Source of the DNA: Porticoccaceae bacterium
GTDB taxonomy: Bacteria > Pseudomonadota > Gammaproteobacteria > Pseudomonadales > Porticoccaceae
NCBI GenBank assembly: GCA_018663035.1
Contig: JABJEX010000047.1
Coordinates: 1 to 64,000, forward strand
Direction of reading: 5' to 3'
Length of the DNA: 64,000 nt
Shown here: piece after piece, positions 6,807 through 10,772 of the stretch
Numbering within the stretch: the stretch's first letter is position 1
How the letters are laid out: each line of letters begins with the position of its first letter
The notes under the pieces: generated by a model
What the model was told of the DNA's origin: nothing
Databases searched by the model: none
The model's input: the letters and a program-made list of their open reading frames with translations, nothing else
Position numbers and translations under genes: made by a program

Positions 6807-8918
6807 TTAAGCTTGGGCGTATTGCTCGGCATGACCAAGCCATCTCGCGATAAGTGGGTCGACCTTTTGTTGGTGGTTAAGCAGGAGTTTTTCAGCGGCT
6901 CGCTTCACCTGTGGCAGCATATGAGCATCACGCTGTAGATCGGCAATATGTAGCTGCATATCGCCGGTCTGCCTAGTGCCTAGCACCTCGCCTGGCCCCC
7001 TGATTTCGAGGTCTTTTTCGGCAATCTTAAAGCCATCAGTAGTTTCGCGCATAATTTTGAGGCGTGCACTGCCATTATTGGAAATAGGAGCGCTATACAG
7101 TAGAACACAGTGGCTGCTCTGTGAGCCTCGACCTACTCGGCCGCGCAACTGATGCAGTTGAGAGAGCCCCAAACGCTCTGCATTTTCGATAATCATCAGG
7201 CTAGCATTGGGCACATCGACGCCTACCTCTATCACTGTGGTCGCTACCAGCAAATTAATGTCACCCGACTTAAATGCGTTCATCACCTCAAGCTTTTCTC
7301 TCGGCTTAAGTCGGCCATGCACCAAACCAATACTCAATTCAGGCAACATTAGCTGTAGCTCGCTGGCGGTTACCTCTGCGGCCTGAGCTTCCAGTACATC
7401 TGATTCTTCAATGAGCGTACAGACCCAATAGGCTTGACGGCCAACAGTGCATGAGGCTCGCACCCGATCTATGACGTCGTTGCGTCGTAGGTTGTTTAAC
7501 ACGACAGTTTCCACCGGGGTTCGGCCTGGGGGCAGTTCGTCTATAACCGAGCAATCTAGATCAGCATAGGCACTCATGGCCAGAGTGCGAGGAATTGGGG
7601 TTGCCGTCATAATTAGCTGATGAGGAGCAGGCCCCATGGCAACAGGGTTATCCGGATTAAAGCCTTTATTGCGCAGCGCCAGACGTTGGTGCACGCCAAA
7701 ACGATGCTGTTCGTCAATAATACTAAGCCCCAAATCATGAAAGCTTACAGCCTCCTGAAACAGAGCATGTGTGCCGATAACCATCTGCGCGGAGCCATCG
7801 ACCATGGCTTCAAGCTGCATTTCTCTGGCCTTGCCTTTAACTTTGCCGGTTAGAAAGGCAACGCGGATGCCTAGGGGGCGAAGCCACTGGTCAAAATTAA
7901 TACGGTGCTGCTCAGCTAAAATTTCAGTGGGCGCCATCAAAACGGCCTGTTTGCCATTGGCTATGGCCTGCACGGCGGCCATGGCTGCTACGACCGTCTT
8001 GCCCGAACCCACATCTCCTTGAACAAGGCGAAGCATGGGTATGGCGGTACTTATATCCTGATTAATTTCGTCTACTACTCTCAGCTGGGCTGCGGTGAGC
8101 GTAAAGGGCAGCTGTTGTAAAAATTTGTCTTGCGCCGTTTTATCTCGCATCAGCACGGGCGCTTGCTGCTGCTGTACTTTTTGGCGTAGACGAAGCAGGC
8201 TTAGGTTATGTGCTATTAACTCTTCAGCGGCCAGTCGTTGCTGCGCTGGGTGTTCGCCCTCGGATAACAGATGCAGCGCAGTCCCGGGTGGCGGGTTGTG
8301 GAGTAGGCGCAATGCGTTATCTAGAGAGTAGCTGAGTTCATGCCCTAACTCTGTTTTTACCTCATTAGGGAGCAGTTCCGCAATCTGATACTCCTGAAGC
8401 TGTTTTAGTGCCTGAGCGCAGAGATCGCGAATCCGAGTTTGAGTAATTCCCTCAGTGGCCGGATATATAGGTGTTAATGTCTCTTCTAGTTGCGCCGGAT
8501 TAGCGCTGTCTAGATACTGATATTCGGGATGGTAGAGTTCGACACCAGATTTTCCTCGCCGCACTTCGCCGAAACAACGCAGGCGAGTACCTGGTTTTAG
8601 GCGCTCCTGTTGAGCTCGATTAAAATGAAAGAATCGCAAAGTAACCACGCCGGTTGAATCTTGGATTCTGCACACTAGACTGCGACGCCGACCAAAAACC
8701 ACATCGCTCGCTCGAATCTCGCCCTCAATAACTACGTCAGACATAGGCTGAATGCCGCCAATGGGGGTGACCTGAGTGCGATCTATGTAGCGCAGCGGGA
8801 GGTGAAAAAGCAGATCTTGCACGCTGTAAAGGCCAAGTTTCTTTAGTTTGGATGCAAGCTGAGGCCCCACCCCATGCAGACTGGTAACGCTTATTTTATC
8901 AAGAGTTTGCGGCGCCAT
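6807..8918 (-). CDS. recG: ATP-dependent DNA helicase RecG
   Basis: A 703-residue RecG, which remodels stalled replication forks and branch-migrates Holliday junctions. The N-terminal wedge/OB domain occupies about residues 60-150. Walker A GDVGSGKT is at 301-308, followed by motif II as DEQH and the helicase C-terminal domain with QLRGRVGRG. Full length for the family. The ATG overlaps the stop of oxyR (TAATG at 8916-8920), so translation is coupled to oxyR. The recG-oxyR neighbourhood is shared with Pseudomonas. Confidence 0.97.
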   Translation of the reverse strand: MAPQTLDKISVTSLHGVGPQLASKLKKLGLYSVQDLLFHLPLRYIDRTQVTPIGGIQPMSDVVIEGEIRASDVVFGRRRSLVCRIQDSTGVVTLRFFHFNRAQQERLKPGTRLRCFGEVRRGKSGVELYHPEYQYLDSANPAQLEETLTPIYPATEGITQTRIRDLCAQALKQLQEYQIAELLPNEVKTELGHELSYSLDNALRLLHNPPPGTALHLLSEGEHPAQQRLAAEELIAHNLSLLRLRQKVQQQQAPVLMRDKTAQDKFLQQLPFTLTAAQLRVVDEINQDISTAIPMLRLVQGDVGSGKTVVAAMAAVQAIANGKQAVLMAPTEILAEQHRINFDQWLRPLGIRVAFLTGKVKGKAREMQLEAMVDGSAQMVIGTHALFQEAVSFHDLGLSIIDEQHRFGVHQRLALRNKGFNPDNPVAMGPAPHQLIMTATPIPRTLAMSAYADLDCSVIDELPPGRTPVETVVLNNLRRNDVIDRVRASCTVGRQAYWVCTLIEESDVLEAQAAEVTASELQLMLPELSIGLVHGRLKPREKLEVMNAFKSGDINLLVATTVIEVGVDVPNASLMIIENAERLGLSQLHQLRGRVGRGSQSSHCVLLYSAPISNNGSARLKIMRETTDGFKIAEKDLEIRGPGEVLGTRQTGDMQLHIADLQRDAHMLPQVKRAAEKLLLNHQQKVDPLIARWLGHAEQYAQA

Positions 8919-9841
8919 TAGGACTTATTGATTCCCGGTAGCTTGCGGTCATAGATCGCGTTGCGCAATGCATCTATCGCTTTGTGGCGGGGGAAACTTG
9001 CTCGCCAAGCCAATGCCGTTGTGCGCGACGGGCTACTGCCGGCGAAGGGACGAGTCACTAAACTATTGCCGCGGTGCTCTGCGCCTATGGCCGCAGATTG
9101 CGGCAATATGGTGATGCCCAGACCAGAGGCAACCATGTAGCAAAGGGTTTCCAGAGAACTGCCTTCGGTCATAGTGCGGATTGGCGCACTGCCAACAGGG
9201 TTTCGATTAATATTGGGGAGCGCCTCTATTACCTGGTCTCTAAAACAATGCCCCTCTCCCATCATCAGAACATTTTCGCCATCTAAATCACTGTGATCAA
9301 TTTCCTGCTTGGCGGCGAGTGGGTGGTTGCCCGGCAATAGCAGTACAAAGGGTTCTTCGTACAGTGGTTGCACCACGACATCTGGTTCATTAAATGGCAG
9401 CGCGACAATAATCACATCTACCTCGCCACTGCGCAGGCGTTTGCGCAGCGTACTAGTGTAGCCCTCCTCAATGACCAGCGGCATCTGTGGTGCAGACTTT
9501 TGCAGCGGTGGAATAAAGTGCGGGAATAGATAGGGGCCAATGGTAAAAATAGCGCCCACATGCAGTGGGCTGTTGAGCTGATCTTTACCGGAGGTCGCAA
9601 TATCTTTAATGGCCGCTGCTTCTTCCAGTACTCGCTGAGACTGGGCGATTATCTGCTCTCCTATAGGCGTGGGTCTAACGCTGCTTTTTGAGCGCTCAAA
9701 AAGATCAACTCCAAGCTCACTTTCTAGTTTTTTAACCGCTATACTCAGAGTTGGCTGGCTGACATTGCAGCGCTCTGCGGCATGGCCAAAGTGCGAGACC
9801 TGAGCCAGAGTTGTGATATAGCGGAGTTCTGTAAGTGTCAT
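8918..9841 (-). CDS. oxyR: OxyR-type LysR regulator lacking the resolving cysteine
   Basis: A 307-residue LysR-family activator with an N-terminal winged helix-turn-helix (MTLTELRYI..., CNVSQPTLSIAVKKLE) and a ligand/redox domain. The peroxidatic Cys199 sits in GEGHCFRDQ at exactly the E. coli position. However, residue 208, the resolving cysteine of E. coli and Pseudomonas OxyR (EACP in the latter), is Leu (EALP). Another cysteine is at 234 (SSLETLCYM). The protein may sense peroxide by sulfenylation or through Cys234 rather than a 199-208 disulfide. Divergent from the YeeZ-like gene across 55 bases. OxyR identity is strong; the peroxide mechanism is uncertain. Confidence 0.88.
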   Translation of the reverse strand: MTLTELRYITTLAQVSHFGHAAERCNVSQPTLSIAVKKLESELGVDLFERSKSSVRPTPIGEQIIAQSQRVLEEAAAIKDIATSGKDQLNSPLHVGAIFTIGPYLFPHFIPPLQKSAPQMPLVIEEGYTSTLRKRLRSGEVDVIIVALPFNEPDVVVQPLYEEPFVLLLPGNHPLAAKQEIDHSDLDGENVLMMGEGHCFRDQVIEALPNINRNPVGSAPIRTMTEGSSLETLCYMVASGLGITILPQSAAIGAEHRGNSLVTRPFAGSSPSRTTALAWRASFPRHKAIDALRNAIYDRKLPGINKS

Positions 9842-9896
9842 GTTATAGGCTCAATTGAAAAACAGTTTCTCTAATAATAGCTAATATTAATCAAGC

Positions 9897-10772
9897 ATGA
9901 AAGATCAATTAAAAATACTATTTGCCGGCTGTGGTGACATTGGTCAACGCACGGCGCTGCGTCTGGCGCCAAACCATTGTTGCTACGGCATGAAACGACA
10001 GCCTCAGAATCTTCCTCAGGGCATTGTTCCTATTGCCGCAAATATTACGGATGCTGAGCAATTAACGACTATTCTCGATCAGGGTTTTGATGTGGTGGTG
10101 GTAACGCTGACACCAAGCGGCTTTACTGAACAGGCTTATAGAGAGTCCTATGTGCGGGGCGCCGCAGCCCTATCCAAGGCAATTGATGCCACTGCACATA
10201 GGCCAGGTCTAGTTATCTGGGTATCTAGTACCAGTGTCTATGGCAACAATAATGGTGACTGGGTTGACGAGACAACAGCTACAGAACCTGAGTCTTTCTC
10301 TGGCGTTCTGTTACTAGAGGCCGAGCAACTCATAAAGGCGCTGCCAGTGGCTCAGACCACTGTGCGTTTCTCTGGCATATATGGGCCCGGGCGCACCAGA
10401 ATGCTGAGCCAGATAATGGAGGGTAAAGGTCGGCCGGCGCAGCCACCGCAATGGAGTAACCGGATTCACAGTGATGACTGCGCTGGTGTTCTCTGCCATC
10501 TTGTTGAGCGCTATGCTGCTAATAAGCCTATCGAAACGCTTTATTTGGCTACCGACTCACAGCCAGTCACTCAGCATGATTTGCGGCGTTGGATGGCGGA
10601 CCAGATGCAGGTCAAGTTAGAAGATGAAATTGTCGAGCAGAAGGCGGCGAGGCGCTGCAGTAATCAGCGCCTTTTAGCTAGTGGATATCAGTTTATTTTC
10701 CCCAGCTATAAAGAAGGCTATCTGGCATTGATGGCAGAGGTTGGGGGGTTAGCGGGTAATCTAGATAACTAG
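9897..10772 (+). CDS. NAD(P)-binding SDR-family epimerase-like protein (YeeZ type)
   Basis: A 291-residue atypical short-chain dehydrogenase/epimerase-like protein. The N-terminal dinucleotide motif is AGCGDIGQ (residues 10-17), and [12 protein letters not shown] (around residue 103) contains the YeeZ-like Ser/Tyr region, followed by [10 protein letters not shown]. The closest named relative in style is E. coli YeeZ, whose substrate is unknown. It is cytoplasmic with no signal peptide. Its 3' end overlaps the convergent ridA gene by 12 bases. An enzymatic role is inferred from the fold only. Confidence 0.8.

Follow-up and report, generated by a model that had tools for sequence, protein, structure and literature searches.

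The window, a 64,000-nucleotide stretch of the genome of a Porticoccaceae bacterium, encodes a genuine OxyR orthologue of the oxyR-recG type of Pseudomonas, which retains the peroxidatic cysteine (Cys199) and carries leucine at position 208, where the resolving cysteine usually sits. Sequence comparison places the loss of Cys208 in the common ancestor of the family. On balance, and with moderate confidence, we favour the explanation that this is a Cys199-only OxyR, which would use a sulfenic acid or a mixed disulfide as its signal and have a peroxiredoxin under its control.

An OxyR orthologue with leucine at position 208

The oxyR gene (8918..9841, reverse strand) encodes a protein of 307 amino acids, the C199/L208/C234 variant, and was identified from its open reading frame and translation, its best NCBIfam match and its closest PDB relative by sequence and fold. 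The best family match is the NCBIfam OxyR equivalog at 219 bits, under the cut-off of 329 for a model that is the enterobacterial PRK11151. By sequence the closest PDB relative is P. aeruginosa OxyR (4x6g, 57–58% identity). The AF2 model of the window protein (mean pLDDT 88.7) matches the full-length structure 4x6g (Foldseek E 9e-42, TM 0.87) and the reduced regulatory domain of the same protein (4y0m, TM 0.92 normalised by target), and its residues 199–207 are helical, as in reduced OxyR. The two proteins share the loop GEGHCFRDQV(L/I)EA(C/L)P and the pocket residues, P. aeruginosa OxyR being otherwise the best match in both sequence and fold; it differs in possessing Cys208, with which Cys199 forms a disulfide, in having arginine at position 234, and in controlling a regulon that includes catalases, of which this genome has none.

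In the translation the redox loop reads GEGHCFRDQVIEALP. Cys199 (codon TGT, 9245..9247, reverse strand, as are all codons given here) and Leu208 (codon CTC, 9218..9220) fall in the same alignment columns as residues 199 and 208 of E. coli OxyR, so that reading frame, codons and alignment all confirm the initial annotation of an OxyR homologue with Cys199 kept and leucine at 208. That annotation also took the numbering to match E. coli exactly, which holds for these two residues but not for Cys234 (9140..9142): a six-residue insertion after 208 shifts it onto the column of E. coli Arg228. The leucine codon is two base changes away from TGC, and Phe208, a possible intermediate, is seen in relatives. 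The only other cysteine in the protein is Cys25 (9767..9769), which lies in the DNA-binding domain and is invariant in the alignment. Alongside Cys199 the protein has the full set of OxyR pocket residues, namely Thr100 (9542..9544), Thr129 (9455..9457), His198 and the active-site arginine Arg273 (9023..9025), which correspond to T104, T133, H202 and R271 of the S. oneidensis pocket (PMC8787470). The loop adjoining Arg273 (residues 269–272) has repeatedly gained cysteine in relatives that lack Cys208.

The start codon of recG (6807..8918, reverse strand) overlaps the oxyR stop codon by one base, and the two genes presumably form an operon. Among the named relatives recG lies in the flank of oxyR in 70 of 71, mostly less than 100 bp away. 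Pseudomonas has the same gene order. On the other side lies a divergent NAD-dependent epimerase-like gene (9897..10772, forward strand), a conserved neighbour according to the open reading frames and the flanks of relatives. Between them, an alignment of 25 SAR92 upstream regions revealed a conserved element, TTAGCTATTATTA (9872..9884, reverse strand), which is probably the promoter -10 of oxyR and may possibly overlap an autoregulatory site. The genome (2.02 Mb in 104 contigs, 100% complete) has SAR92-clade and Porticoccaceae genomes as its nearest named relatives and contains no second OxyR, its other LysR matches reaching at most 27% identity; the two-cysteine OxyR2 described below is absent from it.

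Loss of Cys208 across the family and beyond

Among 55 distinct full-length sequences of the Porticoccaceae/SAR92 clade, position 208 is leucine in 47, methionine in three, isoleucine in three and phenylalanine in two; it is always hydrophobic and never cysteine. The 12 other distinct SAR92 orthologues, which are 87–90% identical to the window protein, all lack Cys208. Cys199 is kept in 54 of the 55, with one divergent lineage having Ser199 instead, and the pocket is preserved to the same degree (Thr129, His198 and Arg273 each 55/55, Thr100 54/55). In reduced S. oneidensis OxyR the resolving cysteine sits inside a fully non-polar cavity (PMC8787470), which fits the strictly hydrophobic character of residue 208 in this family.

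Outside the family Cys208 is present in 61 of 69 distinct sequences, and the alignment shows it to be kept in sister groups, Cellvibrio, Aestuariicella and Exilibacterium among them. It has also been lost in Pseudomaricurvus (V, F), Marinagarivorans (L, F), a Candidatus Endobugula (L) and a second Cellvibrio copy (H). About seven independent losses, one of them spanning the whole family, and no regains were inferred from a quick tree built with the columns in question omitted, in which some branches are open. An order-wide survey of the loop pattern returned at least 150 loops; among the matches listed, which exclude the family's own, there were 144 with Cys, two with Ser, two with Asp, one with Leu and one with Met. 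The loops with Asp belong to two genomes of family f40 in the same order (G150, G180).

The initial annotation had suggested a lineage-specific trait of a marine bacterium, and this is borne out: the organism belongs to SAR92 and the loss extends across its lineage (55/55). The scenario that it named as a refutation, relatives with Cys208 and a local sequencing error here, is excluded since family relatives all lack Cys208; either a sequencing error or a pseudogene in the window is ruled out by conservation over the 55 sequences together with the dN/dS values given below.

Two further variations of the redox region were observed in the family. Porticoccus-type OxyRs (L032, L033, L036, L041–L050) have Arg201 replaced by glycine (14 sequences), and most of them have Cys272. 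A SAR92 subclade (L021–L025) has an extra conserved cysteine, Cys213, 14 residues past Cys199.

A candidate OxyR site upstream of a peroxiredoxin gene

This genome encodes neither KatG nor a monofunctional catalase, and has a single AhpC-type peroxiredoxin. In 50 genomes of the SAR92 genus we found no monofunctional catalase, and KatG in 16 (14 above the cut-off). Comparison of upstream regions identified a site, CTAT-N7-ATAR-N7-YWATTRG, common to 14 SAR92 genomes and lying 100–120 bp before the start of the peroxiredoxin gene; the site proposed as the target reads CTATCGGGATAATAAAAACAATTTATTAG. The E. coli OxyR consensus consists of four ATAG/CTAT boxes, and the peroxiredoxin site matches the last three of these.

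Counting G046, in which the site adjoins a fragment of the peroxiredoxin gene, the site lies beside the peroxiredoxin in 15 genomes, this one included, all of which have an intact C199/L208 OxyR. The pattern has 17 matches across the 50 genomes, no more than one per genome and 15 of them beside the peroxiredoxin, compared to five for a reversed control pattern; its recovery is partly circular, as the pattern was derived from these sites, but its near-uniqueness per genome is not. This genome has no exact match other than the one near the peroxiredoxin. The site is absent from two genomes that share this peroxiredoxin and have no oxyR (G039, G059), from G042, whose OxyR has Ser199, and from G060, whose oxyR is frameshifted, but also from G041 and G058 despite an intact OxyR. 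Presence of the site is associated with intact oxyR (Fisher p 0.0025, kinship ignored). The G042 protein (L063) combines Ser199 with Ile208 and Cys234, the peroxidatic cysteine having been lost in the same genome that lacks the site.

Searching this genome with the four-part OxyR consensus at three mismatches was uninformative, giving 11 sites compared to eight for a reversed-pattern control, and no site was found upstream of katG in relatives among the minority of katG starts that could be located. The main target of the window OxyR is predicted to be the AhpC-type peroxiredoxin, through binding to the putative site upstream of that gene.

A second, two-cysteine OxyR in SAR92

Twelve of the 50 genus genomes encode a different OxyR-like regulator (OxyR2, L240–L251), which shares about 29% identity with the window protein and, unlike it, retains both Cys199 and Cys208; in all 12 it is divergent from katG (four genomes) or an ahpC-type gene (eight genomes). 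Window-type oxyR is present in two of the 12 genomes with OxyR2 and in 30 of the 38 without it (p 0.0002, kinship ignored), and the exclusion holds in high-quality genomes alone (p 0.0017, kinship again ignored). Three to five of the OxyR2 genomes keep the wreckage of the one-cysteine, window-type oxyR. The simplest reading would be that one OxyR has been replaced by the other, and near mutual exclusion together with these remnants, so read, supports a shared role for the two regulators.

Proposed signalling without the Cys199–Cys208 disulfide

Two models of OxyR activation, a disulfide between residues 199 and 208 or, in the 'molecular code' model, modification confined to Cys199, have been debated for two decades on the basis of engineered mutants (both models in PMC3953959). 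As there is no Cys208, the disulfide model cannot operate here or elsewhere in the family, and sensing must do without it, as the initial annotation supposed for this protein. We propose that peroxide would oxidise Cys199 to sulfenic acid inside the intact pocket, with no Cys208 to lock the oxidised residue in the classical disulfide, and that the protein would be active either as this sulfenic acid or after Cys199 has formed a mixed disulfide with a small thiol such as glutathione; the latter is possible since a glutathione synthesis gene is encoded in this genome. Oxidised OxyR would then control the AhpC-type peroxiredoxin of an organism that has no KatG or monofunctional catalase to rely on. 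Both the response to H2O2 and the chemistry of the active form are predictions from sequence. The initial annotation had also allowed for a constitutive LysR regulator unrelated to peroxide; this is made unlikely by the conservation of Cys199 and the pocket, by the peroxiredoxin-linked site and by a distribution complementary to that of the two-cysteine OxyR.

Several observations count against our preferred explanation. The closest orthologue to have been characterised is that of P. aeruginosa, in which a C208A strain loses the response to H2O2 while basal expression of katA and ahpC stays normal (PMC13295329), and E. coli OxyR with C208S loses its response to polysulfide (PMC6831875); in addition there are the two genomes with intact OxyR and no site (G041, G058) and the repeated losses of the gene in SAR92. 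The main rival follows from the P. aeruginosa result: without Cys208 there may be no sharp H2O2 switch, and the protein may be a semi-constitutive activator or repressor of the peroxiredoxin, with persulfide or another thiol modification, rather than peroxide, tuning its Cys199. Persulfidation of Cys199 in P. aeruginosa OxyR has indeed been described as a 'single-Cys activated state' (PMC13295329), and streamlined surface-ocean bacteria may want steady rather than switched peroxiredoxin. However, Thr100, Thr129, His198 and Arg273 have been conserved as well as Cys199 since the loss of Cys208, the protein shares its niche, in mutually exclusive fashion, with a two-cysteine OxyR, and the P. aeruginosa C208A strain is a fresh mutant that is not adapted to the loss. 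We consider semi-constitutive or persulfide-tuned regulation rather unlikely and regard it as the main rival to the Cys199-only switch.

Cys234 and other candidate replacement cysteines

We think it improbable that a new cysteine took over the resolving role, although the pattern of gains has some features that would be expected of this. Under such a scheme the resolving thiol would have moved after the loss of Cys208, to position 234 in the lineage of the window protein and to the 269–272 loop in other branches of the family, so that a differently placed disulfide would lock the oxidised state and a few members would be left with Cys199 alone. Cysteine at 234 or 269–272 occurs in none of the 65 sequences that have Cys208, and about eight gains at 269–272, beside Arg273, all fell on branches without Cys208, which make up 45% of tree length (p 0.002, for sites picked after the data had been seen). 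Two sequences that have lost Cys234 (L014, L018) have Cys272. Examples of cysteine at 269–272 are L014, L041, L054, L055 and L135.

Against this, Cys234 was gained once, is confined to SAR92 and has become serine in one SAR92 subclade, the residue being arginine elsewhere in the family, and seven family sequences have cysteine at neither 234 nor 269–272. Six sequences without Cys208, five of them from the family, have Cys199 as their sole regulatory-domain cysteine, and thus no replacement cysteine is obligatory. An independent-pairs test of compensating cysteines, which was underpowered, was not significant. Cys234 as a general substitute or conserved partner was accordingly rejected, being lineage-limited, lost in a subclade and dispensed with in the six Cys199-only proteins, and the same observations weaken the proposal of the initial annotation that sensing may rely on it.

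Selection and gene loss in SAR92

Comparison of the window gene with its nearest relatives gave dN/dS of 0.03–0.05, with synonymous sites near saturation, and less saturated pairs within the family mostly gave 0.02–0.06; these values indicate strong purifying selection on oxyR in the clade of the window protein. With the conserved oxyR-recG operon and the site 5' of the peroxiredoxin gene, they make the gene look functional. An intact window-type orthologue (E 1e-60 cut-off) is nevertheless missing from 18 of the 50 genus genomes, four to six of which show visible oxyR remnants at the locus between the epimerase gene and recG. These include truncated or frameshifted pieces (L252 1129–1476, L253 1129–1476, L254 2361–2708), shorter traces (L255, L257) and two oxyR halves in different frames (L066 of G060, starting at position 2002). 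Window-type OxyR has thus been lost repeatedly in SAR92 and is not indispensable. That it is a decaying relic on its way out of SAR92, with Leu208 as a step of its degeneration, is nonetheless very improbable: these absences and remnants, and Ser199 in one divergent member, are what decay would leave, but the gene is under the strong purifying selection noted above, and the loss of Cys208 is far older than the decay, being fixed in the other genera of the family, which retain Cys199.

Relation to known one-cysteine regulators and implications

OxyR DR0615 of Deinococcus radiodurans is likewise a natural one-cysteine OxyR, thought to signal via sulfenic acid with no disulfide; its position 201 is threonine, C210 is kept, and T201C restores the missing cysteine (PMC2225504). 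It thus lacks the equivalent of Cys199 and has its sole redox cysteine at the equivalent of position 208, whereas the window protein, set apart from it by these described residues, is the reverse. Mycobacterial OxyS is also a LysR-type redox regulator with a single regulatory cysteine, but uses Cys25 in the DNA-binding domain (PMC3260234); Cys25 is present in the window protein but is invariant in its two-cysteine relatives as well. A search of an open-access library turned up no report of a SAR92 OxyR and nothing on a naturally occurring OxyR with Cys199 only. Within that library a natural OxyR of this kind is new, and it differs from the Deinococcus one-cysteine type.

A marine family in which Cys199 is strongly constrained and Cys208 is absent, along with the further independent losses, provides natural proteins with which to test the need for the disulfide, and sister genera with Cys208 can serve as controls for the same question. 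More generally, annotation of a protein as 'OxyR' does not imply a disulfide mechanism.
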